The position numbers were made by a program, and so were the translations under genes. 62,797 bases of DNA, taken from Chloroflexota bacterium (lineage in GTDB: Bacteria; Chloroflexota; Anaerolineae; UBA4142). The DNA is taken from contig JACRBM010000002.1 in NCBI GenBank assembly GCA_016219275.1, positions 1 through 62,797 of the forward strand. The letters are read 5' to 3'. Numbering within the stretch: the stretch's first letter is position 1; every line of letters starts with the position of its first letter. Below the pieces are notes generated by a model. The model was not told the DNA's origin. It searched no databases and was given only the letters and a program-made list of their open reading frames with translations. Of this stretch, positions 16,568 through 32,416 are shown piece after piece.

Positions 16568-16595
16568 TTGGCTTTATCCGTGCCGGTGGTATAAT
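16568..16595 (+). promoter_or_regulatory. promoter with extended -10, possibly leaderless
   Basis: TTGGCT, a 16-nt spacer, then TATAAT preceded by TGG (extended -10). The expected start of transcription is at about 16602-16603, which coincides with the ATG at 16603. Confidence 0.6.
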
Positions 16596-16602
16596 GTGGG
16601 CA

Positions 16603-17706
16603 ATGTCTCTCCATCGGTTGTGGGCAATCGCGCACAAGGAATTCCGCCACATTCAGCGCGACAAACGCACGTTGTTTCTCGTGACGCTTTCGCCGGCGAT
16701 CATGCTCATCGCGTTCGCGTACCTCTTTGCGTTCGAAGTGCAAAGCGTGCGGCTGGGCGTCTGGGATGCGGACCAGTCCGCGCTCTCGCGGCGATACATC
16801 GCCAGTTTGACCGCGAACGGCAAGTTCACGCTCGCGCGTCAAGTGACCGGTTATGTGGCGTTGCGCGAAGCAATGATGAGCAACGCGATTCACCTCGGCA
16901 TTGTGATCCCGCCGGATTTTGAAGCGATGCTCGCGCGCGGCGAATCGGTGGACGTGCAAGTGATCGCCGATGGCAGCGACGCGATTTCATCGGCGGGCGG
17001 CGTGACGCGCTTGCGTCAGCGGACGAGGGAATTCAGCCGCCAGTTCTCCGACAGCGCGTTGCCGCCGCCGATCACAGTGCAAGCGCAAGCGTGGTACAAT
17101 CGCGAACTCAGTTCGACGCTCGCGATGGTGCCAGGGCTGGTGCCCGTCGTCATGATTCTGCCGTCGCTCGCCATCGCGCTCGCGCTCACGCGCGAAAAAG
17201 AACTGGGTAGTTTTGAAACACTTGCCACCACGCCGATTCGCGGGTTCGAATATCTTGCCGGCAAATTATTGCCGTACATCGTCTACGGCATCGTTAGCGC
17301 CAGCGCCGCGTACCTGATGGCGATAATCTGGTTTCGTGTCCCGCTGCGCGGTCCCGCGCTCGATTTGCTCGGGATGACCGGGTTGTATCTGTTCGCGTCG
17401 CTGGGCATGACGTTGTTCTTTTCCTCGTTCCTCGCCAACCAGGGCACGGCGATGCGCGTCGTCCTCTTGATTTTTTTCATTCCCAGTTTTTTTATGGCAG
17501 GCGTGGTCCTGCCGGTGGATACGCGCTCCGGCGCGGCGCAAATCTTTTCGTTCTTTCTGCCGACGACGCATTTGGTGCAAATCACGCGCGGCGTATTTCT
17601 CAAAGGGCTGGGGCTGCCGGATTTGGTTACGCAGTCGTTCAACATGTTCGTCCTGGGTCTCGTACCGTTCATCCTGAGTTTGCTCACGTTTCGTAAGCAG
17701 GTCTGA
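16603..17706 (+). CDS. ABC-2 type transporter permease
   Basis: A membrane protein of about 367 residues. One N-terminal helix (residues 25-43) is followed by a large extracytoplasmic domain (about 45-170) and five C-terminal helices, the layout of YhhJ/DrrB-like ABC-2 exporters. An upstream in-frame ATG at 16594 lies within the -10 box, so the ATG at 16603 is preferred and the message may be leaderless. It overlaps the next permease by one base (TGATG). No ATP-binding subunit gene is adjacent, so the partner ATPase must lie elsewhere. Confidence 0.88.
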   Translation: MSLHRLWAIAHKEFRHIQRDKRTLFLVTLSPAIMLIAFAYLFAFEVQSVRLGVWDADQSALSRRYIASLTANGKFTLARQVTGYVALREAMMSNAIHLGIVIPPDFEAMLARGESVDVQVIADGSDAISSAGGVTRLRQRTREFSRQFSDSALPPPITVQAQAWYNRELSSTLAMVPGLVPVVMILPSLAIALALTREKELGSFETLATTPIRGFEYLAGKLLPYIVYGIVSASAAYLMAIIWFRVPLRGPALDLLGMTGLYLFASLGMTLFFSSFLANQGTAMRVVLLIFFIPSFFMAGVVLPVDTRSGAAQIFSFFLPTTHLVQITRGVFLKGLGLPDLVTQSFNMFVLGLVPFILSLLTFRKQV

Positions 17707-18821
17707 TGCTCAAAACGATTCTCAACCTGGCGTGGAAAGAATTATTACAACTTGTGCGCGACCGGTTGTTGCTGATGTTCTTGATCATCGTTCCAGTCGT
17801 GCAACTCGGGATGATTGCCGAAGCGACCGGCGCGGGGATTCGCAATATCCGTCTCGCCGTGTGGGATCAAGACAAGAGCCAGTTTAGCCAGGACTTGGTC
17901 ACCGCGCTCCAAAACTCCGGCAACTTTAACTTGACGAGTCGCGCGTCCAGTTATGGCGAAGTGCAAGAGTTGATGGCGCACGGCAAGATCGGCGCGGCGG
18001 TGATTATTCCTCCCGGGTTTTCGCGCGATCTGTTCAAGCCCGGCGTTGGCGCAACGGTTCCGGTAATCGTGGATGGCACGAACGCAATCGTCGCGAGCAA
18101 CTTGTTCGGCTCGGTCGAGGGCGCGATTGCCGATCTCTCGCGCCAATTCGTGGGCGCATCGGCGAACACCGCACTCGGCGCGATCAATCTCAAAATCGAA
18201 TTCGCGTTTAATCCCACGTTGAACTTGCGTTGGTCTACGCTCGTGACGCAATTGGGTTTCATCACATACCAACTCGTGCTCATCGTCGCGGCGGTCGGCT
18301 TCGTGCGCGAGCGCGAACTCGGCACGCTCGAGCAACTCGCGGTGACGCCGATTCGTCGGTTCGAATTGTTGCTCGGCAAAGGGTTGTTGGCGCTGCTGAT
18401 CGGACTGGTCAATTTCACGTTGCTCTATCTCGCGTTGGCATACGGTTTTCAAATTCCGATGCGCGGTAGTTTGTTGCTCTTGTTCGCGCTCGGCGTTCTG
18501 TTCATCATCGCCGAGATCGGCGTGGGCACCTTGCTCTCGATCATCACGGCGAGTCAACAGCAAGTGATTTTGATGGTCTTCTTGCTCGCGATGCTCGAAG
18601 TCACGTTTTCCGGTTATCTCGTGCCGACAGAGAATATGCCGTGGTTCATGCAATTCCTCGCGAGTTTTTCGCCGCTGCAACATTTCAGCGCGATTCTGCG
18701 CGCCGTGTACATCAAAGGTTCGTCACTCACAATGGTGTGGCAAAATGTCGTGCCGCTCGTCGCGCTCACTGTGGTGACGGTGAGCACGGGCTGGTATCTG
18801 TTCAGTCGCGCGGAATGGTGA
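17706..18821 (+). CDS. ABC-2 type transporter permease
   Basis: A paralogue of the preceding permease, 371 residues with the same topology: a first helix near residues 20-40, an extracytoplasmic region with LAVWDQDKSQFSQDL, then about five C-terminal helices with the conserved RERELGTLEQLAVTPIRR cytoplasmic loop. The TGATG junction shows coupled translation. Paired permeases of this kind usually form a heterodimeric exporter with a separate ATPase. Confidence 0.9.
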   Translation: MLKTILNLAWKELLQLVRDRLLLMFLIIVPVVQLGMIAEATGAGIRNIRLAVWDQDKSQFSQDLVTALQNSGNFNLTSRASSYGEVQELMAHGKIGAAVIIPPGFSRDLFKPGVGATVPVIVDGTNAIVASNLFGSVEGAIADLSRQFVGASANTALGAINLKIEFAFNPTLNLRWSTLVTQLGFITYQLVLIVAAVGFVRERELGTLEQLAVTPIRRFELLLGKGLLALLIGLVNFTLLYLALAYGFQIPMRGSLLLLFALGVLFIIAEIGVGTLLSIITASQQQVILMVFLLAMLEVTFSGYLVPTENMPWFMQFLASFSPLQHFSAILRAVYIKGSSLTMVWQNVVPLVALTVVTVSTGWYLFSRAEW

Positions 18822-18825
18822 TCCG

Positions 18826-19740
18826 ATGAAACTTGCCGTCAACTATTCCTTGCCGCTCCTAGACCTGGTTCGTACGCAACGCGTCGCGGTGGATTATCTC
18901 AAACTCCCGGCGTGGCGCAACGTCATCGCCGACGCGCAACGCGTGCATCCATCGTTCATCCACTTTCCACTCAGCATCGGTTCCGGCATCGGCGACGCGA
19001 TGAATCATGAAACGCGTCTACGCGCCGATTGGAACGCAATCGAGGCGATGGCGCGCGAAACAACTACGCCGCTCATCAACCTGCATTTCTTTGCGTCCGC
19101 GCGCGATTTTCCGGACATTCCGGTAGACACAGCTGATCCAACGCACATCGCGCGGTTAACCGAGTGCGCGATTCGCGATGTGCGCGCCGTCGTCGCGCGC
19201 TTTGGCGCAGAACGCGTGATCGTCGAGAACGACAACTCGGCAGGTGGGACGACGTTGCGCCCCGTACTGTTGCCTCAAGTGATCGCACGCGTGATCGAAG
19301 AAACGGGATGCGGCTTTCTGCTCGATCTGTCACACGCGCGCATGGCGGCGCAATACCTGGGCATGGACACGCACACGTACATCGCCGCGTTGCCGGTCAA
19401 ACGCATTCGCGAGATTCACATAACCGGCATTCAGGTAATCGAGGGACGCTGGCTGGACGCGCTCGCGCGCGTGGAGGGCAGTCGCGATTTTATCGCGCGC
19501 TATGCCGGACGATGGATGGATCATTTGCCGATGACCGACGCGGACTGGGACGCATTTGCGTGGGCAATCGGCGAGGTGCGCGCGGGACGTTGGGCGGAAC
19601 CCTGGGTCGTGACTTTCGAACACGGCGGGATTAGTCCGTTATGGGAAGCGTTCACCGACGCGGACGCGCTTGCGACCCAGGTGCCGCGTCTCGCGGCGAT
19701 GGTGAATGGGCGAAAAGAAGAGGGAAACGAAAGGAAATGA
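18826..19740 (+). CDS. DUF692-like (MbnB/TglH-type) TIM-barrel protein
   Basis: A 304-residue TIM-barrel protein. The motifs VIVENDNSAGG (near 125-135), LLDLSHAR (near 166-173) and REIHITGI (near 191-198) match the metal-binding pattern of DUF692, the multinuclear iron oxidase group that modifies ribosomal peptides. A xylose-isomerase-like sugar enzyme is the main alternative. It starts 4 bases after the second exporter permease, suggesting one operon. No Cys-rich precursor peptide is visible nearby. The C-terminal tail EEGNERK is encoded by a dispersed repeat that supplies the stop codon. Confidence 0.6.
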   Translation: MKLAVNYSLPLLDLVRTQRVAVDYLKLPAWRNVIADAQRVHPSFIHFPLSIGSGIGDAMNHETRLRADWNAIEAMARETTTPLINLHFFASARDFPDIPVDTADPTHIARLTECAIRDVRAVVARFGAERVIVENDNSAGGTTLRPVLLPQVIARVIEETGCGFLLDLSHARMAAQYLGMDTHTYIAALPVKRIREIHITGIQVIEGRWLDALARVEGSRDFIARYAGRWMDHLPMTDADWDAFAWAIGEVRAGRWAEPWVVTFEHGGISPLWEAFTDADALATQVPRLAAMVNGRKEEGNERK

Positions 19741-19801
19741 AGGAAATATGGAAACGGGTCACTATCTACCCCTCGTTTCCCTTATTTCCTTTACTTCCCG
19801 C
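19719..19801. repeat. intergenic GGAAATGAAGGAAA/TTTCCCTTATTTCC hairpin repeat
   Basis: Words GGGAAACGAAAGGAAATGAAGG are mirrored by CCTCGTTTCCCTTATTTCC after a short loop. It overlaps the 3' end of the preceding gene. Similar words occur at 50383-50465 and 53139-53213. Confidence 0.75.
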
Positions 19802-19827
19802 ACTTGCTTGTTTCTTGAGCGATAACT

Positions 19828-20385
19828 ATGGCTTCGCTAGACGATCTTATCGCGCAGTTACGCGATTTGAATGACGATGAATTACAACGCGTCCGCGCAT
19901 TCATCGAAATGCTGCGCGGCGCGCGCGCGTCCGCCGCGTGGTCGTTCGATTTCCTCGCGCATTTCGACCACGCGGCGAAATCGGCATCCCGCAATCCCGG
20001 CGGCATGGAAATTCGCGTCGCCGACGCGACCTGCGCGAGCATCACGCGTCTCGCGTTGTGGGAACATCCGCCGGTCAGCGGCTCGGCGAGTGTGGGCTAC
20101 CTCGTGCCGATTCCGAACGGACTGCGCGAAATGAAACTAAAATTTTCTGTCGGCATTCGCGATGGTTCGGAATTGCCGCCAGATCGTTTCATTGCGTTTC
20201 GCGTGCTCGTCAATGGGTTCAAGTTTTGGAGCACCGTCAAGAACACGCACGCGTGGGAGGAGCACGCGGTCACGATGCCGCAACTCGGCAGTGATGTTGC
20301 GCGCATTGAATTCGTGACGGATGGCTTGGGCGATAATCGTTGGAATTGGGCGGTGTGGGGTGAGCCGCGACTCGAAGGCGAGTAA
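19828..20385 (+). CDS. hypothetical protein with beta-rich C-terminal domain
   Basis: 185 residues, not recognised. Residues 1-35 are helical (LDDLIAQLRDLNDDELQRVRAFIEML), then about 140 residues are beta-rich with several Trp, resembling a carbohydrate-binding or jelly-roll module (MKLKFSVGIRDGS, FKFWSTVKNTHAWEEHAV, IEFVTDGLGDNRWNWAVWGEP). No signal peptide or membrane segment is visible. It lies between the DUF692-like gene and an acyl-CoA dehydrogenase, with a repeat hairpin in front. Confidence 0.55.
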   Translation: MASLDDLIAQLRDLNDDELQRVRAFIEMLRGARASAAWSFDFLAHFDHAAKSASRNPGGMEIRVADATCASITRLALWEHPPVSGSASVGYLVPIPNGLREMKLKFSVGIRDGSELPPDRFIAFRVLVNGFKFWSTVKNTHAWEEHAVTMPQLGSDVARIEFVTDGLGDNRWNWAVWGEPRLEGE

Positions 20386-20446
20386 CCCCACCTCAACCTT
20401 TCCCCCACATGGGAAGAGTGACAACTTCAATGGCGAAGGAGGAACG

Positions 20447-21595
20447 ATGGATTTTCAGTTGACCGAAGAACAGCGCGCGATCCGGGACATGGTGCGCGAT
20501 TTTGCAGAAAAAGAAATTGCGCCGCGCGCGGCAGAGATTGATCGCACAGACGAATTTCCCGCCGACATTTTTCGTAAGATGGGCGAGCAAGGATTGCTCG
20601 GCTTGCCGTACCCCGAAGAGTACGGCGGCGGCGGCGCAGACACCGTATCGCAGGCGCTCGCGGTCGAAGAAATTTCGCGCGTGTCCGGCTCGGTTGGGTT
20701 GACGTACGCCGCGCATCTCTCGCTCGGCTGCGGTCCATTTTATTTGTTCGGCACGGAAGCGCAAAAGAAAAAATGGCTTGTCCCGCTCGCGCGCGGCGAG
20801 GGACTCGGCGCGCTCGCGCTCACCGAAGCCAAGGGTGGGAGCGACCTTGCCGGTTCGGTTACGACGACCGCCGAATTGCGCGGCAATGAGTGGATCATCA
20901 ACGGCTCGAAAATGTACGTCACGTCCGGCGCGGTCGCGCGCTCGATCACGACCTTGTCCATCACCGACAAAGCGCAAGGACATCGCGGCTTGAGCATGAT
21001 CATCGTCCCGCGCGATGCGCCGGGATTGGTCATCGGCAAGTCGGAAGAAAAGATGGGCTTGCACGGTTCGATGACGACCCAGGTTTTCTTCGAGGATTGC
21101 CGCGTGCCGAAAGAAAATTTGCTCGGCGCATTGGGTACGGGATTCAGGCAAGCGATGCAGACGCTCGACGGCGGGCGCATCGGCATTGGCGCGATGGCGG
21201 TGGGGCTGGGTCAAGCCGCGCTCGACGCGAGCATCAAGTACGCGCAAGAACGTCAGGCATTCGGTAAACCGATCGGGGATTTTCAGGCGATTCAATGGAT
21301 GATCGCGGACATGTCGGTCGAACTTCAAGCCGCGCGATTGATGGTGATGCAAGCCGCCACACTGCGCGACAATAAGCAAGCGTTTGCGACGCAAGCCGCG
21401 ATGGCGAAACTGTTCGCGTCCGAAGCCGCCGACCGTGCGTGTTGGAAAGCGATTCAGATTCACGGCGGCGCGGGGTACTTGCGCGATTTTCCGGTCGAAC
21501 GCTTTTATCGCGACAATCGCTTGACGATGATCGGCGAGGGGACGAGCGAGATTTTGCGGATGGTCATCGCGCGGAATGTTCTCAAGAATCAATAG
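20447..21595 (+). CDS. acyl-CoA dehydrogenase
   Basis: A flavoprotein of 382 residues that oxidises an acyl-CoA to the enoyl-CoA and passes electrons to electron-transfer flavoprotein. The N-terminal helical domain starts DFQLTEEQRAIRDMVRDFA. FAD-binding motifs LTEAKGGSD and TSGAVARS follow. The C-terminal part has QAFGKPIGDFQAIQWMIADM and the end IHGGAGYLRDFPVERFYRDNRLTMIGEGTSEI, with the catalytic Glu expected in the EGTSE segment (isovaleryl- and short-chain types differ here). The start follows a GGAGGAACG site. No other beta-oxidation genes lie nearby. Confidence 0.95.
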   Translation: MDFQLTEEQRAIRDMVRDFAEKEIAPRAAEIDRTDEFPADIFRKMGEQGLLGLPYPEEYGGGGADTVSQALAVEEISRVSGSVGLTYAAHLSLGCGPFYLFGTEAQKKKWLVPLARGEGLGALALTEAKGGSDLAGSVTTTAELRGNEWIINGSKMYVTSGAVARSITTLSITDKAQGHRGLSMIIVPRDAPGLVIGKSEEKMGLHGSMTTQVFFEDCRVPKENLLGALGTGFRQAMQTLDGGRIGIGAMAVGLGQAALDASIKYAQERQAFGKPIGDFQAIQWMIADMSVELQAARLMVMQAATLRDNKQAFATQAAMAKLFASEAADRACWKAIQIHGGAGYLRDFPVERFYRDNRLTMIGEGTSEILRMVIARNVLKNQ

Positions 21596-21607
21596 GCGAG
21601 ATTGAGA

Positions 21608-22441
21608 ATGAATGACGAGTATTCAAAACAAAAACAAAAACTCGAAGAGTTCTTCAGCCCAGCGTACTTAGACACATTGCCCGATCCCTATCATGTATTT
21701 TCCAAAGTTGTCGAGTACCATGCCGGCTTGAGCGAGGATGAGAAAGCCACATTTGAAGATGCAGCGATGGATTGGTTGGATATACAGAGTACGGAATTGA
21801 CAAATGCGGAAAGGCGCCGGCTTTTTAATGGAATGCAAGTGTGTGGCGACCTCAAGCTAACGCGCGCAGTCGAAAAGATTTTGGGAATTGCACGGAGGTT
21901 TGCTCCTCTACGCGATCCTGCTAACGCATACCAGAATGACATTCCGACATCTATCGTAAGTTGTTCCATCGGTATGCTGGAATTGATTGGCGACCTCAGG
22001 GCAATTGATTTCCTGAAAACAGAGGCAAGCCATTGCGGTGACGAAAATCCTACCCGTGCAAGCGTTGCCGCAATTGGTGCTCTGGCCACATTTGATTTGG
22101 ATGCCGCGTTGGATTTCTTGCCTATCGAGGTTATGGGCGATGTACGATACTGGGAGCAACGCACGTGGCAGGATAAGTACAAAAAGTTTGGTGTGTTCCA
22201 TATCACTTTGTTCGATTTGATAGGAACATATGGACGGGACATTGTCCCCAAGATCGCCAACCGTTTACGAGGACTTACATCAGAACAAAAGAGATTTGCA
22301 CTAAACGCATTCAAAGATATGATGCAACGCCCAATCCTTGAGGCGGCTGACGGTAGAATAACACAGGACGAGGAGAAGGCAGCTCTGGTCGAACGATTTG
22401 TGGAGGCACTGGGGTTGACTCTTGGAGAACCACAAAAATAG
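21608..22441 (+). CDS. hypothetical protein, possibly helical repeat
   Basis: 277 residues, not recognised. The sequence is mostly alpha-helical with patterns such as SIGMLELIGDLRAIDFLKTEA and ASVAAIGALATFDLDAALDFL that recall HEAT-type repeats. It has no signal peptide. Codon use is less GC-rich than the flanking genes, which points to recent acquisition. An in-frame TTG lies 6 bases upstream as an alternative start. It converges on the intein-bearing methyltransferase and shares the repeat between them. Confidence 0.6.
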   Translation: MNDEYSKQKQKLEEFFSPAYLDTLPDPYHVFSKVVEYHAGLSEDEKATFEDAAMDWLDIQSTELTNAERRRLFNGMQVCGDLKLTRAVEKILGIARRFAPLRDPANAYQNDIPTSIVSCSIGMLELIGDLRAIDFLKTEASHCGDENPTRASVAAIGALATFDLDAALDFLPIEVMGDVRYWEQRTWQDKYKKFGVFHITLFDLIGTYGRDIVPKIANRLRGLTSEQKRFALNAFKDMMQRPILEAADGRITQDEEKAALVERFVEALGLTLGEPQK

Positions 22442-22450
22442 CAATAGATT

Positions 22451-22512
22451 GATAAACAAAAAACAGGTAGACAAGTAATTACTCCTTGTCTACCTGTTTA
22501 CTTGTCTACTTG
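22451..22512. repeat. intergenic AGGTAGACAAGT/CTTGTCTACCTG hairpin repeat
   Basis: ACAGGTAGACAAGTAA is followed by inverted CTTGTCTACCTGTTTACTTGTCTACTTG. It overlaps the 3' end of the methyltransferase, giving its terminal residues Gln-Val-Asp-Lys and the stop. The vocabulary is the same as at 13604-13692. Confidence 0.8.
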
Positions 22513-24375
22513 TTTCGTTTTGCGCTTGCGCGCGATTCGCTCCTCGACAATGCGCGGCTGACCCAGGTTCGCGATGCGCTCTTCCGCCATCGTGCAGTAC
22601 TCGGGCGTGATTTCGTAGCCGACGTAGTGCCGCTGCGTCATTTTCGCCGCGAGCGCGGTGGTGCCGCTGCCGACGAACGGATCGAGCACGACATCGCCCA
22701 TGTTAGTGTAGAGTAAAATCAAGCGGAGCGGCAGGTCGAGTGGGAACGGCGCGGGATGCGCGGGCGCATGTTTGTTGCGCCGCCGGCTGTGCGTGTCGAA
22801 TTGCCAAATCGAATTTTGCGCGTCCGCGATTTCCTCGTGCGGACTGCGCCACACGCTTTTCGTCCACTCGACAAATTCCAGGTTCTCGATGCCGCTCTCG
22901 TTGCCGTGCGTCACTTGGAGTTTCCAGGTCTCTTTGCAAAACACCAGGATGTACTCGTGCACATCGCGCAGAGTCGGATTCGACGCGCGGGCGAAACTGC
23001 CCCAGGCGGTAGAAATTCCCGCGCTGTTATGACTGACGATGCCATTCGCCAGAACGAACAGATGCGGCGCGTGCGCTAATTCGACATCAAAGAAACGCGC
23101 CTTGCGTTCGGAAATTTCCTTGATCTGAATCGTATCCCAGTTCATCGCATTGTGGTGTGATGATTCGGCAAGATAGAGTTTCCAACGAATGACTTGATAC
23201 CGCTTGCCAGTCTCGTCCGCGGTTGCCCAGCCAGCCGAATGGTGCAAACGATATCCCAAGGAACGCGTCAGCGCGCGCATCACCGGCATAAAACGCAGAT
23301 TCGCGCCGGTGGTATTTCCTTCCCAACAATTGTTTAACGCATCGAAATGTCCATCGCCGTCCAGCCAACCCTGCAAAAACGCGGCGCGCCACTCACGCGG
23401 TGCGCGCAGTACGCTGTCCAAAGGCAACTTGGTGCGCGCCGATGTGCCGGCGATAAACTCGCGGATAATGACGTACGCGATCTGCCCAGAGATGTTGGCT
23501 TTGATTTTATTTTCGACAATCCGATAATTGACCGCGCATCCAAACGACGACCAAACTTGCTCAAGTCGCTCGACGAATTTGATTTCATCTTTGTGGAGCG
23601 TGTAGCTGATTGAACTAACGCCGCGTCCATTGCGATGATTGATGCTTCCCTCGGCAAGATAAAGACCCAGCGCCCATGCCAGTGATTCACTTGCAAACGC
23701 CAGAGGAATCGTACCTTCATACTCCGGCGTCGCGCGTGAACGTTTCAGACAATCGCCGACGTGAAGGTTTTTTGCCAATACCAAGGTCCCGTCAGGACGC
23801 GGAAAACGATGATTCGCGGTGGCAGTGACCGCCGAACCATCGGAGAAAGTCAGTACTCGTCCTGAGAGATGTTTGGTTTCCCAGAGATTGACGATGGGTT
23901 GCCAGCAAGGTCTCCCCGCTTGATCTACGGCTTCGATGTCTACCTTGTGCCACGTGTCATAATCGTGCAAATCGGAGAGCCGACGGCAAGAGACGCTTCC
24001 GGTCTCCCGGTCTCTGACAAAGAACTTGGTGTTGCCGGAGAGGCATGGACCTTTATCCCAGATTATCTCGCCGCGCATCAACAGACCCAGGTCAATCAAC
24101 TGTTTCGCAATGTACGTGTTGAGCGGGACGTACGGCTTTCGCCACGTGTTCGCGATGTTGACTGCAATGCGACCGCCGGGCACAAGGACGCGCGCGCACT
24201 CTTGCCAGATCAATTTGAGATAGCCCAGGTATTCTTCCAGCGCCATCTCGTCATAGTGCGTGGTGTAATCTTTGCCCACGTTGTACGGCGGCGACGTGAC
24301 GATGAGTTGCACCGAGCCATCGTCCACCTCGCGCATCGTTCGGCTATCCGCGCAGTAAATCTTGTCGAGTTCCAC
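22498..24375 (-). CDS. site-specific DNA methyltransferase interrupted by an intein
   Basis: A beta-class amino-methyltransferase (N4-cytosine or N6-adenine). The catalytic motif IV TSPPYN comes first and the AdoMet motif I DPFVGSGTT near the C-terminus. The GTG at 24375 (VELDKIYCADS) is preferred; the frame extends further up to 24447. A 340-residue intein interrupts the motif IIWDKGP | SAGISTAWGSF, which would be rejoined on splicing to a normal 285-309-residue enzyme. No restriction endonuclease gene is adjacent, so it may be an orphan methylase. The C-terminal residues QVDK and the stop come from a dispersed repeat. Confidence 0.9.
   Translation of the reverse strand: MELDKIYCADSRTMREVDDGSVQLIVTSPPYNVGKDYTTHYDEMALEEYLGYLKLIWQECARVLVPGGRIAVNIANTWRKPYVPLNTYIAKQLIDLGLLMRGEIIWDKGPCLSGNTKFFVRDRETGSVSCRRLSDLHDYDTWHKVDIEAVDQAGRPCWQPIVNLWETKHLSGRVLTFSDGSAVTATANHRFPRPDGTLVLAKNLHVGDCLKRSRATPEYEGTIPLAFASESLAWALGLYLAEGSINHRNGRGVSSISYTLHKDEIKFVERLEQVWSSFGCAVNYRIVENKIKANISGQIAYVIIREFIAGTSARTKLPLDSVLRAPREWRAAFLQGWLDGDGHFDALNNCWEGNTTGANLRFMPVMRALTRSLGYRLHHSAGWATADETGKRYQVIRWKLYLAESSHHNAMNWDTIQIKEISERKARFFDVELAHAPHLFVLANGIVSHNSAGISTAWGSFARASNPTLRDVHEYILVFCKETWKLQVTHGNESGIENLEFVEWTKSVWRSPHEEIADAQNSIWQFDTHSRRRNKHAPAHPAPFPLDLPLRLILLYTNMGDVVLDPFVGSGTTALAAKMTQRHYVGYEITPEYCTMAEERIANLGQPRIVEERIARKRKTKQVDK
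23026..24045 (-). mobile_element. intein with LAGLIDADG homing endonuclease
   Basis: An in-frame 1020-bp insertion encoding 340 residues. Block A starts at Cys1 (CLSGNTKFFV). Block B is GSAVTATANHRF with the conserved T-x-x-H. The two dodecapeptides of a LAGLIDADG endonuclease are LGLYLAEGSI (intein residues 127-134) and LQGWLDGDGHF (224-234), with acidic residues retained. Block F is FFDVELAHAPHLFVLANG and block G ends IVSHN, followed by Ser as the +1 extein residue. All splicing residues are present, so it should be active. Confidence 0.92.
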
Positions 24376-24454
24376 GCGCGCTATTGTAACATAACCGCGC
24401 GCGTGAAGCAAAAAGAATCGCACGCACATTCCCGGAAGATAGTCCATGTGGGTA

Positions 24455-24483
24455 TTGACCCACCACGCGAGTTGTTCTATACT
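24455..24483 (+). promoter_or_regulatory. sigma70-type promoter
   Basis: TTGACC, a 17-nt spacer, then TATACT. It is placed correctly for the secreted protein gene that starts at 24551, which has a GAGGGAGAG ribosome-binding site. Confidence 0.7.
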
Positions 24484-24550
24484 AGCCCGCGCGTGTTCGT
24501 TCGACCAACAGAATACAGCGCAAATTTATCCACTATGAGGGAGAGTCTGA

Positions 24551-26176
24551 ATGTTTCAGCGACAAGCACGTTGGGTATTTCGCATCGTTTTGACCGTAGG
24601 GTTTGCATGGGGATTGCTAACTCTGGCTACGACCGCGTTGGCTCAGGGAGCCGTTACCCCGGTCAATTCGGGCTTCGACCCAGCCACTCACGCATTCAGT
24701 TTTGAAAACTACGGCGGCGATTCTGGCTTTACCAATTTGACTCCCATCGAAATGAAACGATTGTTTGGTAACCAGGTATGCGTTAGCGAGGAAGGTGGCA
24801 ACTGTCTTTTATCGCCCGTTGCCAAGCAATGGATGGACGAGACGAACAAGCAAATGAACGGGGGGCACTGTGAAGGGATGGCGGTGCTTGCCGCGCTCTT
24901 TTACACCGGCAAATCCAAGCCCGCCGATTTTGGCGCGCCGCTTGCCAAGGACATGCCGATCATCGGTAATGAACAGTTGCAACGTGAGATTGCCTTTTGG
25001 TGGGCGACGCAAGCCACGATGCCGACGCGCACCGCCGTCATCAAAGCGACACCGAAGGATATTGTGGCGCAACTTGCCGATGCGTTCAAGCCCGGCAAGG
25101 ACGCGTCCGATACATTTTCGATTGGCATCTATAAACGCGATGGCAGTGGCGGACACGCGGTCACGCCCTACGCGATTGTGGACAAGGGCAACGGCATCGC
25201 GAATATTTTGGTGTACGATAACAACTATCCAAACCAGGAACGCGCGATTATCGTGGATGTGAACGCGAACACCTGGCAGTACAAAGCGTCCATCAATCCG
25301 AGCGTCGAAGCCGATTTGTACGAAGGCGATGCGACGACCATGTCGCTTGACCTGACGCCCGCGTCCGCGCGGCTCAGCACTCAACTGTGCACGTTCTGCG
25401 AAGCGAGCGCGAATCGCGTGAACGGTTCTGCCGCGCCGATCACCCAGTACAACGAAATCTACCTTGACGGTGCGGGCGTGCGCGCGCTCATCACGGATGA
25501 CAAAGGGAACAAACTCGGACGCGTGGACAACAAGATCGTCAACGAAATTCCTGGCGCGCTGATTCAACGCTTCAAAGCGGGTGTGGAAACGTGGAGCCAG
25601 GATGAGGAACCCAACTATTTGGTGCCGCTCGGCGTCAAATTCACGATCACGCTCGACGGCACGGCGCTGAAGAAAGAAACACGCGCGGGAATCGCGATGA
25701 TCGGACCAGGTTACAGTCTCGACATCGAAGACATCAAGATCGTTCCCGGGCAAAAAGACACGCTCGATGTGTCGCCGGACGGCAGCAAGTTGTCGTACAA
25801 ACCCGGCAAAGGCGAATCGCCGGACATCGAGCTCGCCATCGAGGGCAAGGACAAGGTGGATTACGATTTTCTCGTCAAAGGATTTGACCTCGAAGAAGGC
25901 GGTGCGGTCAATGTCGCACTCGATGTGAAGAGGGGGCAATTGAGCGTCAACACTATCGGCAACAAAAAAGCCGGGTCGTACGACCTTGCCATCGGTCGTT
26001 ATGATTCAAAAGGCGAGCAGGAATTTGGCAACACGTTCAAGCTCGAACCTGCCGACACGGTATACGTGGATTACGGCAAATGGCAAGGCAACGGCAAGCC
26101 GCTGACCGTCGAGATTGATTACAAGAGTGACGGCACGATTGATGAAACGGTGGAACTCGAAGATTTGCAAAAATAG
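24551..26176 (+). CDS. secreted protein with papain-like/C39-like cysteine peptidase signature
   Basis: 541 residues. A Sec signal peptide (about residues 1-32, cleavage after ALAQ) is followed by a domain with a possible catalytic triad: Cys107 in GGHCEGMAV, His202 in GGHAVTPYAI and Asp223 in VYDNNYP. This spacing and the residues around it resemble papain-like and C39-like peptidases or transglutaminase-like proteins. The C-terminal 250 residues are beta-rich repeats and carry no recognisable domain. The protein is probably exported and free, since no anchor is visible. It has its own promoter; the gene stands alone. Function is inferred from the triad only. Confidence 0.65.
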   Translation: MFQRQARWVFRIVLTVGFAWGLLTLATTALAQGAVTPVNSGFDPATHAFSFENYGGDSGFTNLTPIEMKRLFGNQVCVSEEGGNCLLSPVAKQWMDETNKQMNGGHCEGMAVLAALFYTGKSKPADFGAPLAKDMPIIGNEQLQREIAFWWATQATMPTRTAVIKATPKDIVAQLADAFKPGKDASDTFSIGIYKRDGSGGHAVTPYAIVDKGNGIANILVYDNNYPNQERAIIVDVNANTWQYKASINPSVEADLYEGDATTMSLDLTPASARLSTQLCTFCEASANRVNGSAAPITQYNEIYLDGAGVRALITDDKGNKLGRVDNKIVNEIPGALIQRFKAGVETWSQDEEPNYLVPLGVKFTITLDGTALKKETRAGIAMIGPGYSLDIEDIKIVPGQKDTLDVSPDGSKLSYKPGKGESPDIELAIEGKDKVDYDFLVKGFDLEEGGAVNVALDVKRGQLSVNTIGNKKAGSYDLAIGRYDSKGEQEFGNTFKLEPADTVYVDYGKWQGNGKPLTVEIDYKSDGTIDETVELEDLQK

Positions 26177-26185
26177 TGACTGTTC

Positions 26186-26286
26186 ATCCTTGCGAAGATT
26201 TGAAGGCGCCATTCACCAGGAATCGAATTTGCCGTCGTCGCTCAATTCCTCGGAAAAGTGATTAGTAACCTTCGCAAGGATGGGCT
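26186..26286. repeat. intergenic CATCCTTGCGAAG/CTTCGCAAGGATG inverted repeat
   Basis: CATCCTTGCGAAG near 26187 and CTTCGCAAGGATG near 26271 are inverted copies about 70 bases apart. The same arm occurs as a tight hairpin at 61303-61346 within the cox operon. Confidence 0.7.
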
Positions 26287-26318
26287 GAGTAGATACCAAA
26301 ATTAAAACACTGTGAGGA

Positions 26319-26359
26319 TTGACTCGGCGCGCGTTTAGTGTTATCGTAAGCGCCGAGTC
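26319..26359 (+). promoter_or_regulatory. promoter overlapped by an inverted repeat
   Basis: TTGACT, a 17-nt spacer, then TATCGT. A perfect 10-bp inverted repeat GACTCGGCGC (26321-26330) and GCGCCGAGTC (26350-26359) brackets the spacer and -10, as an operator would. Confidence 0.5.
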
Positions 26360-26491
26360 AGTACAGAGTTTGTTGGCTCATGTGCGAAAAGGGGGTGATC
26401 ACTCAGCGTCGAGTTGTAAACCAAGTTCGTTTCAGGCGGTCGTGTGCGTAGCGTTATTCAAACTCACTTTGATTCCCAAAAGGAGCGTACC

Positions 26492-27031
26492 ATGTTAGAC
26501 CGTATCATGGGTGTGGTCACCCTCAAAGCCCCGACCTATCGCGAGATTGCCGATGATCAAAACGCAACTGGGCAAGCCGCAATCATCGTCGTGGTGATGG
26601 CGTTCTTTTCCGCGATTGTCGGCGCGATCATCCTTGTCGCGACGAGTTCGATGCTTCCACCCGAAGCGGCGGCGTCGGCTGGTTCACCCATCGGCGCCGC
26701 GTTCCGCACCCTCATTAATCAGATTATCGGGTGGTTTGTCGGCGCGTGGGTGATCGCGTTCGTATCCAAAACGTTTTTTGGCGGCAAGACGAACACCGGT
26801 GAAATGTTACGCGTGTTCGGCTACACCCAAGTGTTCGGCATTCTCAATATCATTCCGTGCCTCGGAACCATTGCCGCGCTGGTTCTTTCCTTGGTCGCCG
26901 CAGTGATTGGCATTCGTGAGGCGTCCGAGTTCGACACAACCAAAGCTGTCTTGACCGCGATTGTCGCATTCGTCGTCTTGCTGATCGTCGGCAGTATTAT
27001 TGGACTCGTGTTCGGCTTGGTCGGATTATAG
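26492..27031 (+). CDS. YIP1 family membrane protein
   Basis: 179 residues with about five membrane helices and the YIP1-family layout: a short cytoplasmic N-terminus (LKAPTYREIADDQNATGQ), then hydrophobic segments with GYTQVFGILNIIPCLGT. The start at ATG 26492 follows AGGAG; codons above it are not membrane-like. Bacterial members have no firmly known role. A strong terminator follows, so this is a single-gene unit with the promoter at 26319. Confidence 0.82.
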   Translation: MLDRIMGVVTLKAPTYREIADDQNATGQAAIIVVVMAFFSAIVGAIILVATSSMLPPEAAASAGSPIGAAFRTLINQIIGWFVGAWVIAFVSKTFFGGKTNTGEMLRVFGYTQVFGILNIIPCLGTIAALVLSLVAAVIGIREASEFDTTKAVLTAIVAFVVLLIVGSIIGLVFGLVGL

Positions 27032-27042
27032 ACAGTCGTTCA

Positions 27043-27079
27043 AGCCCCGCAGGTCAATGACCTGCGGGGCTTTGTCTTT
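27043..27079 (+). terminator. intrinsic terminator after the YIP1-like gene
   Basis: A 13-bp perfect stem (AGCCCCGCAGGTC / GACCTGCGGGGCT) with a 3-base loop is followed by a T-rich tail. Confidence 0.92.
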
Positions 27080-27118
27080 TCTTAACCGACTGTTCACCTC
27101 TTCTTTACGCGCGTCGCG

Positions 27119-27146
27119 TTGACGCTTGGGCAAACGGTGGTATAAT
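27119..27146 (+). promoter_or_regulatory. promoter with extended -10
   Basis: TTGACG, a 16-nt spacer, then TATAAT preceded by TGG. It lies about 48 bases before the Ycf45-like gene. The same TGGTATAAT string is found near 16587 and 37768. Confidence 0.7.
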
Positions 27147-27193
27147 TTGGGCGTGGCGCTCACGATATTTGCCGCGAAAGGAAATTTCTGGTT

Positions 27194-28750
27194 TTGACTA
27201 CGCAACCGTCTATGATGGACGACCTGGATTTGTTATTGGATGTTCTGCCGCCGCATGTGCAATCGCATTTGCGCGAGATCAATCGCAACGACGAATTGCT
27301 CGAAGTGATTTTGGATTTGGGACGCGTGCCGGAAGCGCGCTTTGTCGGACAAACGGTCCCGCTCAATTCGCGCGAGGTCAATCACGACGATCTCGATTTT
27401 GTCGTGTCGCGCATCGGCATGTTCACCGACGATAATCGCGCCGGCATTCCGCGCACGTTGCATCGCATCTCGTGCATCCGCAATCGGCAAGGCAAAATCG
27501 TCGGCTTGACCTGCCGCGTCGGGCGCGCGGTCTATGGCACGATCGAGATCATTCGCGATATCGTCGAATCGGGCAAGAGCATTTTGTTGCTCGGTCGCCC
27601 TGGCGTCGGCAAGACGACGATCTTGCGCGAATCGGCGCGCGTGCTCGCGGACATCAAGCGCGTGGTGATCGTGGACACCTCGAACGAAATCGGCGGCGAC
27701 GGCGATATTCCGCATCCCGCCGTCGGCAAGGCGCGGCGAATGCAGGTGCCGACGCCATCGCTCCAACACGAAGTGATGATCGAAGCGGTCGAGAACCACA
27801 TGCCCGAAGTAATCGTGATTGACGAGATCGGGCGCGAACTCGAAGCCGAAGCCGCGCGCACGATCGCCGAACGCGGCGTGCAACTCATCGGCACCGCGCA
27901 CGGTCGCTCGCTCGACAACTTGATGATGAATCCAACGCTCGCCGATTTGATCGGCGGCATTCAATCGGTGACGCTGTCGGATGAAGAGGCGCGCCGGCGC
28001 GGTACGCAAAAATCCATTCTCGAACGCAAAGCGCCGCCGACGTTTGGCGTGCTCATCGAGATTCAGGAACGTAATCGGCTCGCGATACATCACGAAGTTG
28101 CGATGGCGGTGGATTCGCTTTTGCGAGGACGTATGCTGCCGCCGGAAATTCGCACGCGCGGCGACGATGGCAAAGTGAACATCGAGAAACCGATCACCGC
28201 GCGGGTGGGCGTATTGCGCGAAAATTCGCGCGAGCGCGGCGTGCGCGGTGAACCGGCGCCCGCGCGCACCGAACCGTCGCCTTTGCGCGCGATGAAATTG
28301 TTTCCGTACGGGTTGAGCCAAGAACGGCTCGAAGAAGCCGCCAAATCGTTGCGCTTGCCGGTGCAAATCGTTGGCGACATTGGCGGCGCGGACGCGGTGC
28401 TGACGCTGAAGAACTACTACCGCAAACGTCCGCCGATTGTCACCGATGCCGAGCGTCGCGGCGTACCGGTATACGTGTTGCGTTCGAATACGCTCGCGCA
28501 AATGGAAGGCGTGCTCGAAGATTTGTTCGGCGTGGATGGACGCAGCGACCCAGTGGACGACGCGATGCGCGAGACGCAAGCCGCGATTGACCAAGTGTTG
28601 AGCGGTGCGAACTCAGTCGAGCTTGCGCCGCAAACGGCATACGTGCGCCGACAACAGCACGAGCTAGTCAAGCGCGCGAATCTATTCTCGCGCAGTCTCG
28701 GCAAAGAACCGAAACGCCGCGTCCGAATTTATGGGAGTGAAGTGGGATAG
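27194..28750 (+). CDS. Ycf45/SpoIIIAA-like R3H-domain AAA ATPase
   Basis: A soluble ATPase of 518 residues. Walker A is GRPGVGKTT (134-142) and Walker B EVIVIDEIGRELEAEA, as in the SpoIIIAA/Ycf45 group. The C-terminal part carries a nucleic-acid-binding region of the R3H type. The TTG start at 27194 is preferred because AAAGGA lies 9 bases before it; ATG codons at 27212 and 27215 are alternatives. The function of this group in bacteria and plastids is not settled. It ends next to a CGATAGTGC repeat. Confidence 0.85.
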   Translation: MTTQPSMMDDLDLLLDVLPPHVQSHLREINRNDELLEVILDLGRVPEARFVGQTVPLNSREVNHDDLDFVVSRIGMFTDDNRAGIPRTLHRISCIRNRQGKIVGLTCRVGRAVYGTIEIIRDIVESGKSILLLGRPGVGKTTILRESARVLADIKRVVIVDTSNEIGGDGDIPHPAVGKARRMQVPTPSLQHEVMIEAVENHMPEVIVIDEIGRELEAEAARTIAERGVQLIGTAHGRSLDNLMMNPTLADLIGGIQSVTLSDEEARRRGTQKSILERKAPPTFGVLIEIQERNRLAIHHEVAMAVDSLLRGRMLPPEIRTRGDDGKVNIEKPITARVGVLRENSRERGVRGEPAPARTEPSPLRAMKLFPYGLSQERLEEAAKSLRLPVQIVGDIGGADAVLTLKNYYRKRPPIVTDAERRGVPVYVLRSNTLAQMEGVLEDLFGVDGRSDPVDDAMRETQAAIDQVLSGANSVELAPQTAYVRRQQHELVKRANLFSRSLGKEPKRRVRIYGSEVG

Positions 28751-28777
28751 TTCGATAGTGCAATAGTGCGGCAGTGA
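28750..28777. repeat. intergenic GATAGTGCAATAGTGC repeat (partial)
   Basis: The words TTCGATAGTGCAATAGTGCG directly follow the stop codon of the ATPase gene. They match the vocabulary at 9536-9654 but lack a full inverted arm. Confidence 0.6.
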
Positions 28778-28805
28778 ATTAGCGCACTTGCTAGAGAGAT
28801 TGAAC

Positions 28806-29021
28806 ATGGAGACCTATCGCGTAGAAACAATTGTTGCGCCGAATCGCGTGCTGACGATTCGGGGAATTCCTTTCCGCGCGGGTGAAAAAATTGAAGTCAT
28901 CATCCTGAGCCGTTCAACGAAACATACTGACGGAGAGCGTTATCCATTACGCGGTAAACCACTCCGCTTTCACAAGCCGTTCGATAGCGTGGCGGAGCAG
29001 GATTGGGATGCTTTGCGATGA
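28806..29021 (+). CDS. VapB-like antitoxin
   Basis: 71 residues, starting METYRVETIV. The N-terminal beta segment VLTIRGIPFRAGEKIEVIIL resembles AbrB/MazE-type or DUF104-like antitoxins, and the C-terminal half (KPLRFHKPFDSVAEQDWDALR) has the conserved tail that binds PIN toxins. It overlaps the start of a vapC-like frame by ATGA, the usual coupling of such pairs. The partner is truncated, so this antitoxin is orphaned. Confidence 0.65.
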   Translation: METYRVETIVAPNRVLTIRGIPFRAGEKIEVIILSRSTKHTDGERYPLRGKPLRFHKPFDSVAEQDWDALR

Positions 29022-29101
29022 TCGTCCTCGATACGCATACCTGGGTTTGGTGGGTGCACAACAAGATTTTGAATTATCCCCACATCATAACCGTAAAGTA
29101 A
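29018..29101 (+). pseudogene. truncated vapC-type PIN toxin
   Basis: The frame starts MIVLDTHTWVWWVHN, the classical first strand of a PIN-domain toxin with its first catalytic Asp, then runs into unrelated residues and stops after 27 codons; intact VapC has about 130. The remaining three acidic residues are missing. The next gene (tmk) begins 12 bases later, so the toxin has been deleted against it. Confidence 0.75.
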
Positions 29102-29113
29102 AACGAGTCATCC

Positions 29114-29737
29114 TTGTCTCTTTTTATCACTTTCGAAGGTCCCGAGGGAAGCGGCAAGACAACGCAAGCGCGCTTGTTCGCCGAGTATCTGCAAGCGCGC
29201 GGGCGCGCGGTGTTGCTCACCCGCGAGCCGGGCGGCACGGCGATCAGCGAGCAAATTCGCGAAGTGATTCTCTCCACGCGCAACCTCGCGATGCAAAACG
29301 AAACCGAAGCGTTGCTCTTTTCCGCCGCGCGCGCACAAATTGTTGCGGAACTCATTCGTCCCGCGCTTGCCGCCGGCAAGATCGTCGTGTGCGACCGCTA
29401 CGCGGATTCGACGCTGGCATATCAAGGGTACGGGCTGGGTCTTGACCTCGACGCGTTGCGCGCGATCACGCGGTTCGCCACCGGTGGACTCGTGCCCGAT
29501 CGCACATTTTACGTAGACGTGCCGGTCGAAGTGGGCTTGGAGCGGCGGCATCGCGGCGAAACGAATCGGCTCGACCACAAGGCGGTTGCGTATCACACGC
29601 GCGTGCGGGACGGGTTTCTTGCGCTCGTGAAAGCGGAACCGCAACGCTGGATCGTGGTGGACGGCACGCCGGGAATCGAAATCGTTCAACAAGAAATTCA
29701 ACGCCACGCAAAACGCTCTTTCGATTTCGGGTTTTAG
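29114..29737 (+). CDS. tmk: thymidylate kinase
   Basis: A dTMP kinase of 207 residues, making dTDP for DNA synthesis. The P-loop EGPEGSGKTT is at 8-17, the DRY motif in CDRYADSTLAYQG and the LID region with RHRGETNRLD. The start is a TTG (29114), which gives the standard N-terminus SLFITFEG; there is no nearby ATG. It stands just upstream of a cyclic-di-AMP receptor gene, the arrangement also found in Firmicutes (tmk-yaaQ). Confidence 0.95.
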   Translation: MSLFITFEGPEGSGKTTQARLFAEYLQARGRAVLLTREPGGTAISEQIREVILSTRNLAMQNETEALLFSAARAQIVAELIRPALAAGKIVVCDRYADSTLAYQGYGLGLDLDALRAITRFATGGLVPDRTFYVDVPVEVGLERRHRGETNRLDHKAVAYHTRVRDGFLALVKAEPQRWIVVDGTPGIEIVQQEIQRHAKRSFDFGF

Positions 29738-29738
29738 A

Positions 29739-29803
29739 TTTCAGATTGTCTTTTCGCATTAGCGATACAATCTAAAATCATACATCAACAATCTGAAATT
29801 CCC
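29739..29803. repeat. intergenic ATTTCAGATTGT/ACAATCTGAAAT hairpin repeat
   Basis: AGATTTCAGATTGTC on the left is mirrored by ACAATCTAAAATC and ACAATCTGAAATT on the right. It lies between tmk and the receptor gene. Confidence 0.65.
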
Positions 29804-29819
29804 CATGGAGGGAAGCGCG

Positions 29820-30149
29820 ATGAAAATGGTCATGGCGATTGTGCAAAACGACGATTCCGGTGCGCTTGCCAACGCGTTACGCAAAAAGAATTTTGCTTCG
29901 ACGCTGATCAGCACGACCGGCGGATTCTTGCGGGAAGGCAACGCGACTTTTATGATCGGCGTGGAAGAAGCGCGGATGGACGAACTGCTCGCGTTGATTC
30001 GCGATAGTTGTGTGACGCGCACCCAGTTCGTCAACCCGATGCCGCCGGTGATGGAGCCAGGCGAATTGTACCTGGCGCAACCGGTCGAGGTCCAAGTCGG
30101 CGGCGCGACCGTGTTCGTGCTGGGCATCGAACGATTCGAAAAATTTTGA
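29820..30149 (+). CDS. cyclic-di-AMP receptor (PII-like, DarA/PstA family)
   Basis: A small cytoplasmic signal protein of 109 residues with a PII-like trimeric fold. Family features visible are the N-terminal MKMVMAIVQNDDS, the T-loop with STLISTTGGFLREGNATFMIGVEE and the C-terminal VEVQVGGATVFVLGIERFEKF. It binds c-di-AMP and reports on osmotic or cell-wall state. The ATG at 29820 is chosen over one five codons up because it matches the family start. Confidence 0.92.
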   Translation: MKMVMAIVQNDDSGALANALRKKNFASTLISTTGGFLREGNATFMIGVEEARMDELLALIRDSCVTRTQFVNPMPPVMEPGELYLAQPVEVQVGGATVFVLGIERFEKF

Positions 30150-30150
30150 G

Positions 30151-30252
30151 ATTTGGAAGTTAGAAAATAGAAATTGGAGGTTGGAGCGAGTCCGACTTCC
30201 AATTTCTATTTTCTATCCTCTAATTTCCAACATCCAACTTCTAACCTCCAAA
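30151..30252. repeat. intergenic TTGGAAGTTAG/CTAACCTCC hairpin repeat
   Basis: Words GATTTGGAAGTTAGAAAATAG and AAATTGGAGGTTGG are followed by inverted CCAATTTCTATTTTCTATCC, CCAACTTCTAACCTCC. It fills the space between two convergent genes and provides the stop codon of the zinc-ribbon gene. Confidence 0.8.
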
Positions 30253-30636
30253 ATCCATTCCTGGGTCGCCTTCGCCGGCAAGACCGGGCATACTCTTTTC
30301 GATTTCCTCCGGGTTTTCGCCGGACTCGAGCCGATCCACCATCTCGGTGAATTCGGGACCTAAATCCTCTCCCCCCATTTGATCGCCCATCTTACGCATA
30401 AACCGCGCGACACTTTTTGGATCGTTCTCATCCACATCGCCAAAGCTGGACGGATCGGACATGGCTTCGAGCCGCGCATCCTCCGACTTGACGGTGGCGA
30501 CGCGCGAGACGAGACGCGTGAGATGCTCGCCATTGCAATTTGGGCAGTGCGGCGCTTGCTGCGTATCGGCGAACGAACGAAAGAAAACGCTGACGCGGCG
30601 ACGGCAATCGCCGCAACGATATTCATAGATCGGCAT
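30241..30636 (-). CDS. FmdB-like zinc-ribbon regulatory protein
   Basis: 131 residues. The N-terminal zinc ribbon MPIYEYRCGDCRRR ... HCPNCNG (two CxxC pairs) is diagnostic for the FmdB/CxxC_CXXC_SSSS family. The remainder is acidic and helical, as usual. Members have been linked to regulation of amide or formamide use, but most have no known role. The last residues (MDFGG and stop) lie in a dispersed repeat. It is convergent with the c-di-AMP receptor. Confidence 0.88.
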   Translation of the reverse strand: MPIYEYRCGDCRRRVSVFFRSFADTQQAPHCPNCNGEHLTRLVSRVATVKSEDARLEAMSDPSSFGDVDENDPKSVARFMRKMGDQMGGEDLGPEFTEMVDRLESGENPEEIEKSMPGLAGEGDPGMDFGG

Positions 30637-30711
30637 AAGTCATCCTCCGCGCCCGATTATATTGAAAATGAAATGCTTGGCAAGGTGAGGCGCAGTGAAA
30701 CACGGTTTTTC

Positions 30712-30817
30712 AAAAGTCATTTGCAGACCCATCCCCCTGCCCCCTTCCCTATAAGGGAAGGGGGTTGGGGGTTAGGTTGGCAAGTGAGTCAAGCGACTTT
30801 TGAAAAGCCGTGGCGGC
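30712..30817. repeat. C/G-run hairpin repeat with GACTTTTGAAAAGCC end
   Basis: The gap between the zinc-ribbon gene and the nuclease gene (30637-30924) has no CDS. It holds TTTTCAAAAGTC, C-rich runs CCCCCTGCCCCCTTCCC, G-rich runs GGGAAGGGGGTTGGGGG and GACTTTTGAAAAGCC, forming one long imperfect hairpin. The copy at 16376-16546 has the same end. A hairpin AGCAGATTCCGT / ACGGAATCTGCT near 30843-30880 is probably a separate terminator-like element. Confidence 0.6.
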
Positions 30818-30924
30818 GAAAAACCACTGACTTTTTCGCGGAGCAGATTCCGTTTGACTGGGAACGGAATCTGCTTTATAGTTTATTCAGTAAAAAGTAA
30901 TCACAAATCTTTGGAGCGTAACCA

Positions 30925-31620
30925 ATGGACCAGACATCCTTTCGTGGCAAGACATTCACTCACGACGATGTACTAAATGCGATGGAACGTTTTGACAGAG
31001 AATTTCGCGCATCATTCCCGGAAAAGCGTTGGGTAACCTATGCGATTAAGTGCAACGCCAAGATTTACCCACCGAAACAAATCATGCGGCTTGTGACCGG
31101 GCTGAATGATTTGGGTAGCGGAGGAAGACCGGTAAACTCCCGTTTTGAAGATTTGGGATTTACGATTGTCATTTTGGATGAGAACGAATCTATTACGCCA
31201 GATGGTGGACAGGTTGAAGATGCAGAGACGGAAATCGCCTTTTCGCTTGAATATGATCTGGAAAATTCGCTGGTCGCCAATTTATCCCAAATCGAAAAAG
31301 GACTGCGTCTCTACAAAGAAAGAGGGATTGTTGGTCAACAGGTAGACGCACAAGCGGCTGGACGCATTGATCTTTTAGCCATTGATGCCAATAATGACTT
31401 GGTTGTGATCGAACTCAAAGCCGGGGAAGCAGATCGGCAGGTATGCGGGCAAATCCAAGCCTACATGGGTTGGGTGAAGGAGAATTTGGCGGGTGAGAAA
31501 AAAGTGCGGGGGATTATTATTGCAAATGACTTTACAGCAAGGGCAACTTATGCGGCTAAAGTCGTGCCAGACCTCAATCTAAAAAAATACAATATCAGTT
31601 TCAAATTTACAGACATGTAA
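30925..31620 (+). CDS. NucS-like PD-(D/E)XK endonuclease with ScoMcrA-like N-terminal domain
   Basis: 231 residues. The C-terminal domain has the nuclease site: Glu109 region SLEYDLENSLVANLSQIE, Asp149 in GRIDLLAID, Glu163-x-Lys165 in VIELKAG and Gln176, the DUF91/NucS pattern. The N-terminal 90 residues (VTYAIKCNAKIYPPKQIMRLVTGL and NSRFEDLGFTIV) resemble the head domain of ScoMcrA-type modified-DNA restriction enzymes. Lower GC content than its neighbours suggests transfer. It could restrict modified DNA or act in mismatch repair; no partner gene is present. Confidence 0.75.
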   Translation: MDQTSFRGKTFTHDDVLNAMERFDREFRASFPEKRWVTYAIKCNAKIYPPKQIMRLVTGLNDLGSGGRPVNSRFEDLGFTIVILDENESITPDGGQVEDAETEIAFSLEYDLENSLVANLSQIEKGLRLYKERGIVGQQVDAQAAGRIDLLAIDANNDLVVIELKAGEADRQVCGQIQAYMGWVKENLAGEKKVRGIIIANDFTARATYAAKVVPDLNLKKYNISFKFTDM

Positions 31621-31621
31621 A

Positions 31622-32173: not shown

Positions 32174-32196
32174 GGAACTCGTCCGCTCGCCTCCTC

Positions 32197-32274
32197 TGTG
32201 CACTTTGTACAACCGCGCCCCCCCTGGATTGCCACACCTTGCCCGTAGACGCTCCCGCGCGCTTATCGTATATT
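32197..32274 (+). promoter_or_regulatory. glutamate synthase operon promoter A with upstream dyad
   Basis: A dyad TGTGC-N5-GTACA (32197-32211) is followed 26 nt later by CTTGCCCGTAGACG (32238-32251), whose last six bases TAGACG act as the -35. After a 17-nt spacer comes TATATT (32269-32274). The second glutamate synthase promoter at 39089-39166 has the same elements at identical spacing. The dyad centre lies about 78 bases before the expected transcription start, a typical place for an activator. Confidence 0.75.
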
Positions 32275-32281
32275 CGGCATT

Positions 32282-32395: not shown

Positions 32396-32416
32396 TCACG
32401 CGGAACGGAGGCAACT

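Follow-up and report, generated by a model that had tools for sequence, protein, structure and literature searches.

A DNA methyltransferase gene of a Chloroflexota bacterium is, with high confidence, interrupted by a full-length class-1 LAGLIDADG intein with two dodecapeptide (DOD) motifs, which would excise itself from an apparently orphan, chromosomally encoded enzyme, would be able to home, and probably came from a phage-type pool of inteins. The gene lies on the minus strand of the window, i.e. the whole stretch of 62,797 nucleotides that we analysed (contig JACRBM010000002.1), and its features are collected in Table 1. Slashes in the sequences below mark the insertion point or the splice junction.

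Table 1. Positions in the window of the interrupted methyltransferase gene, its parts and its putative promoter
Feature	Position	Strand	Remarks
Intein-interrupted N6/N4 DNA methyltransferase gene	22498..24375	-	Probable GTG start to stop; predicted 625-aa precursor, 285 aa once spliced
N-extein	24046..24375	-	Motif IV TSPPYN, then up to IIWDKGP; Pfam PF01555 positions 1-82
Intein, 340 aa	23026..24045	-	C1 ... H339-N340, +1 Ser
N-terminal splicing (HINT) half, blocks A and B	23734..24045	-	C1, T76-x-x-H79; assigned from motifs, invariants and fold; boundary approximate
LAGLIDADG homing endonuclease domain	23146..23733	-	PF14528, acidic E132 and D231, I-DmoI match; boundary approximate
C-terminal splicing half, blocks F and G	23026..23145	-	D320, H328, H339-N340; TIGR01443 above cut-off
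C-extein	22498..23025	-	SAGISTAWGSFARASNP..., HEY motif, SAM-binding DPFVGSGT, stop; PF01555 positions 88-221
Probable promoter TTGCTT-N17-TACAAT	24383..24411	-	Second hexamer ends 7 nt ahead of the GTG

Anatomy and predicted fold of the intein

The intein occupies 1020 nt, or 340 codons, free of stops within a single ORF (22498-24447), which in its longest form opens at an ATG (24447) and encodes 649 aa. It begins with CLSGNTKFFV and ends with IVSHN/S, block B reads T76-A-N-H79, and block F supplies D320 and H328; the class-1 residue set, i.e. Cys1, the T-x-x-H of block B, the C-terminal His-Asn and the +1 Ser, is complete. The two DOD motifs are LAWALGLYLAEG and FLQGWLDGDG, and their acidic residues, E132 and D231, are invariant across seven relatives. 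A sequence-only reading had proposed a complete LAGLIDADG intein at this position without stating its strand: the coordinates proved exact, and blocks A, B, F and G, both dodecapeptides and the four splicing signatures that it listed are all present in the translated ORF. In profile searches, the precursor ORF matched the Pfam families N6_N4_Mtase (1e-44), LAGLIDADG_3 (2.9e-7, above its cut-off) and Intein_splicing (2.5e-4); with the intein alone, Intein_splicing reached 4e-5, which is under its curated cut-off, and the NCBIfam model intein_Cterm (TIGR01443) scored above its own cut-off.

An AlphaFold model of the intein, built from seven sequences (pLDDT 82.5, pTM 0.80), matched whole LAGLIDADG inteins in Foldseek (E 1.6e-15). 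The predicted structure aligns with the TliVMA intein (7qss/7qsu) over 315 residues with a VIA-align Z of 27.5, and with PI-PkoII (2cw7), PI-PfuI (1dq3) and PI-SceI (1vde) with Z of 26.8, 23.4 and 22.6, respectively. Its modelled HINT fold gives Z of 17-18 against the splicing domains of RecA, DnaB and DnaE inteins, and I-DmoI superposes on intein residues 115-295.

The host methyltransferase and its locus

Read jointly, the exteins form one N6_N4 methyltransferase (PF01555) in which TSPPY precedes DPFVGSGT, the beta-class order, and the nearest solved chains are 2zie, 8urk, 8s9m and MboIIA. By these motifs the host is a beta-class N6/N4 methyltransferase, the SPPY motif alone leaving the choice between N4-cytosine and N6-adenine undecided. 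As a model of the intein-free enzyme was poor (pLDDT 42.5) and was set aside, the insertion was placed by Pfam columns and not on a structure: the PF01555 profile resumes at position 88 after position 82. The earlier proposal that the insertion falls in a conserved methyltransferase segment is supported.

Translation probably begins at the GTG at 24375 rather than at the first ATG, since homologues have GTG or ATG at the equivalent position, and the spliced enzyme of 285 aa that this predicts is near the ~32 kDa anticipated from the sequence. The promoter listed in Table 1 went uncalled in a consensus scan; in a by-eye reading, its TAcAAT element is kept in five aligned relatives a short distance before the start, and this proximity suggests that the methyltransferase mRNA may be leaderless.

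The gene is convergent with an acyl-CoA dehydrogenase gene (20321-21595), a single ORF of no recognised family lying between them, and its immediate neighbours are this dehydrogenase and proteins without family assignment. In three intein-free homologues (L003, L004 and L007), an acyl-CoA dehydrogenase frame, identified by eye from its start MDFQL[TS]EEQRAI, also faces the methyltransferase. From this shared neighbour, the locus looks like a chromosomal one inherited with the family and not like a phage remnant; a search of phage records gave no match to the locus DNA. Among the ORFs scanned from 16594 to 33532, no restriction family was found apart from a NucS/PDDEXK-like gene 6.5 kb away, and with no recognisable restriction gene adjoining it, the methyltransferase may still be called solitary, as it had been described.

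Among the other genes of the window, 30925-31620 (plus strand) encodes a NucS_C/PDDEXK-like nuclease that matches the PADLOC candidate defence models PDC-S02, and 18826-19740 (plus strand) encodes an MbnB/TglH/ChrH-like enzyme, of a family that modifies RiPP precursors, adjoining two ABC-2 transporter permeases. The genome itself carries at least three more inteins, with hosts named by eye: one in a ribonucleotide reductase (L130; contig 52 of G000, this genome), one in RtcB (L131/L132; contig 43) and one in a UvrD/PcrA-like helicase (L133; contig 53).

Empty sites, a second carrier and selection

In eighteen homologues, drawn from the same family, order and class, the insert is missing and the alignment is gap-free through the join. 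Residues, domains, fold and empty sites taken together lie far outside what chance would produce. The usual sequence is WDKG[AP] ahead of the join, followed by S or T; the variants are WDKSA/T (L010-L015), WDKNA/S (L018) and a Gly at +1 (L019 and L020), the last being sites at which an intein of the window's class would be unable to splice. The same intein is found at the same junction, 74% identical, in a groundwater Chloroflexi MAG (G008; JACQGS010000209.1), where the gene is broken by contig ends and what remains of the C-extein starts at the end of another contig.

Between the window and G008, intein and exteins have diverged about equally (74% identity each), which counts against claiming recent homing. 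The dN/dS for this pair is 0.08-0.14 over intein and exteins, and ~0.08-0.09 in the splicing and endonuclease parts of the intein, with dS near saturation. All catalytic residues being kept, a dN/dS of ~0.1 indicates that splicing, and probably homing as well, is still under selection. The intein has a GC3 of 0.59 and the exteins have 0.71 and 0.77, a difference in the direction expected for an acquired element.

Within the family, two of 14 genomes have the intein, and seven have the methyltransferase uninterrupted. On the extein tree, G008 groups with an intein-free enzyme, and vertical inheritance in sister carriers, i.e. a grouping of the window's methyltransferase with that of G008, was rejected by the AU test (p = 0.009), a value to be read with the incompleteness of the G008 methyltransferase (286 aa, on two contigs) in mind; the pair was chosen before the tree was inspected, solely for its common intein. 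As the carriers are not sister methyltransferases, the distribution of the intein is sporadic, and the element would either be old in the family and several times lost, or have moved within it.

Proposed cycle and alternative readings

In the scheme that we propose, one precursor of ~625 aa would be translated and the intein would leave it after translation, by a Cys1 thioester, transfer to Ser+1 and cyclisation of Asn340, so that IIWDKGP is joined to SAGISTAW in an uninterrupted methyltransferase of 285 aa. The endonuclease would most likely cut intein-free alleles at the IIWDKGP/SAGIS codons, and repair of the cut allele would copy the intein in. The element would probably have been acquired from a pool of methyltransferase inteins found mostly in phages, then kept or spread sporadically in the family.

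Other readings of the 340 residues are possible in principle. That they are a normal inserted domain of a methyltransferase subfamily, or an assembly artefact, has practically no chance of being right. A continuous ORF is all that speaks for it, and carries no weight; every splicing residue is present, the fold match runs over residues 1-340, and both versions are ruled out by the 18 gap-free empty sites and by the same insert in G008. Intein-free homologues carrying these residues as an ordinary domain had been named at the outset as a finding that would refute the intein, and the alignment shows 18 that lack them. A decaying intein, with splicing kept for the host's need of the enzyme and an endonuclease dead or dying, is a more serious contender, which we nevertheless consider unlikely. 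No very recent copies were found, and the long branch of the intein (see below), together with its Pro at position -1, could mark an old and static element; however, E132 and D231 are invariant, and constraint on the endonuclease region equals that on the splicing region.

The same proline bears on the proposal that splicing gates methylation, made in the sequence-only reading, and in a stronger form on a regulatory intein, whose slow or conditional splicing (in response to redox, temperature or stress) would control the methyltransferase. The -1 residue is Pro in the window, and Ala in G008 and in many empty homologues. A Pro at -1 slows the first splicing step in several inteins and could do so here; our literature search, conducted largely outside subscription journals, found no support for this effect. 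The insert parts motif IV from the SAM-binding motif, so that the enzyme would presumably gain activity only after splicing. Against regulation stand the presence of the intein in so few family genomes and the intein-free relatives that manage without it in a similar genomic neighbourhood; moreover, a selfish element explains the observations equally well, and we recognised no regulatory feature. We regard regulation as highly improbable, methylation being gated, if at all, just trivially, by the need of the precursor to splice, and we retain the self-excising, homing intein as the best explanation.

Distant relatives and a recurrent insertion loop

Searches with the intein sequence only, leaving out the exteins, returned ~30 strong relatives on IMG/VR viral contigs and a few in Chloroflexota genomes. 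When 396 genomes of the class were searched with a profile, four scored below 1e-128 and the next best match came at 1e-14, a clean gap. The intein was unmatched in plasmids and had only weak and partial matches in phage GenBank records. The window intein shares ~30% identity with the group over 340 aa, with an alignment score z of ~50 against shuffles. The host ORF is an N6_N4 methyltransferase for 27 of the 30 best viral relatives and for all three distant cellular relatives that match the full length of the intein, the other three of these 33 being two terminases (by eye) and one glycosyltransferase. Since these distant, mostly phage relatives use the same loop, the window element probably comes from that pool.

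We also note that the inteins L071 and L076 lie in apparent phage terminases and L090 in a glycosyltransferase, an unusual intein host. In L058 (2686-4506), a viral methyltransferase ORF, the C-terminal part of an intein looks intact and block A is absent, the N-extein and intein N-terminus being apparently truncated or deleted.

On the unrooted intein tree, the window intein sits on a branch of ~2.8 changes per site, and it groups with inteins of terminases no less readily than with those of methyltransferases. The grouping with terminase inteins drew a long-branch warning from the tree program and persists after the most distant rows are dropped. With such a long branch, the exact position of the window intein among phage-type inteins is unsure.

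In methyltransferase hosts with a readable N-junction, the insertion comes just after a conserved [LM]R.[DE]I[IV]W or its equivalent, in one of three registers counted from the Trp: 0 (IIW/[SC]KPNPMPES), 2 (WHK/SNPMPES and WHK/TNPPP) or 4 (WQKPN/CMPES and, in the window, WDKGP/SAGIS), the last being common to the window and just four viral inteins. Inteins in different registers can be close relatives: L089 (register 4) and L079 (register 0) are 65% identical, L052 (register 2) and L070 (register 0) 63%, and L087 (register 2) and L079 61%, all five, from viral contigs and GSL.Bin35, having Ser or Cys at +1. Six register changes were counted on the tree, where the minimum possible is two and several forks are weak. 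We put forward, tentatively and at slightly less than even confidence, that a single intein lineage repeatedly shifted its register after IIW (0, 2 or 4), with an endonuclease that would follow the loop across phage and bacterial methyltransferases, the chromosomal one of the window among them, rather than one allele. In a search largely outside subscription journals, we found no paper that describes such a shift, or this intein group outside actinophages.

Taken by itself, the window intein is a bacterial chromosomal addition to the known methylase inteins. Together with its relatives, it suggests that a single loop of beta-class methyltransferases has repeatedly received inteins, from two or more unalignable lineages and in several neighbouring registers. 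How homing endonucleases and splicing junctions pass from one site to another could be studied in such a natural series, and the relatives supply new inteins whose empty alleles are known.

Comparison with known inteins

Judged by its sequence, the window intein is genuine and belongs to an already known kind. Inteins in N6_N4_Mtase proteins of mycobacteriophages (DNMT-1 and DNMT-2) were reported in 2016 (PMC5050341), and actinophage methylase inteins, including Dorothy_75, were studied in 2023 (PMC9957025); with these publications, and with N6_N4 methyltransferases in 30 of the 33 ORFs that host the relatives, the earlier description of the host as uncommon does not hold. The relatives on viral contigs and in other Chloroflexota (L056, L057, L070, L079, L089, L052, L022, L135 and others) match the window intein end to end at ~30% with the same loop and motifs; they differ from it in being mostly at register 0 and in a different methyltransferase subfamily. 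Like the window intein, DNMT-1 and DNMT-2 are full-length LAGLIDADG inteins in an N6_N4 DNA methylase, but the mycobacteriophage cases belong to actinophage hosts and to a different methylase subfamily. The Dorothy_75 intein is placed in the same loop (IAWLYG/SGFPKS; Pfam column ~83, against ~84 in the window), three residues after the Trp instead of four, and ends in Gly-Asn; the two intein sequences are unalignable above chance (z = 1.4), which indicates that at least two intein lineages have used this loop. In predicted structure, finally, the window intein resembles TliVMA, PI-PkoII, PI-PfuI and PI-SceI, all of which combine HINT and LAGLIDADG parts as it does over its 340 residues (Z 21-27), whereas their host proteins are different and their sequence identity to it is 14-19%.
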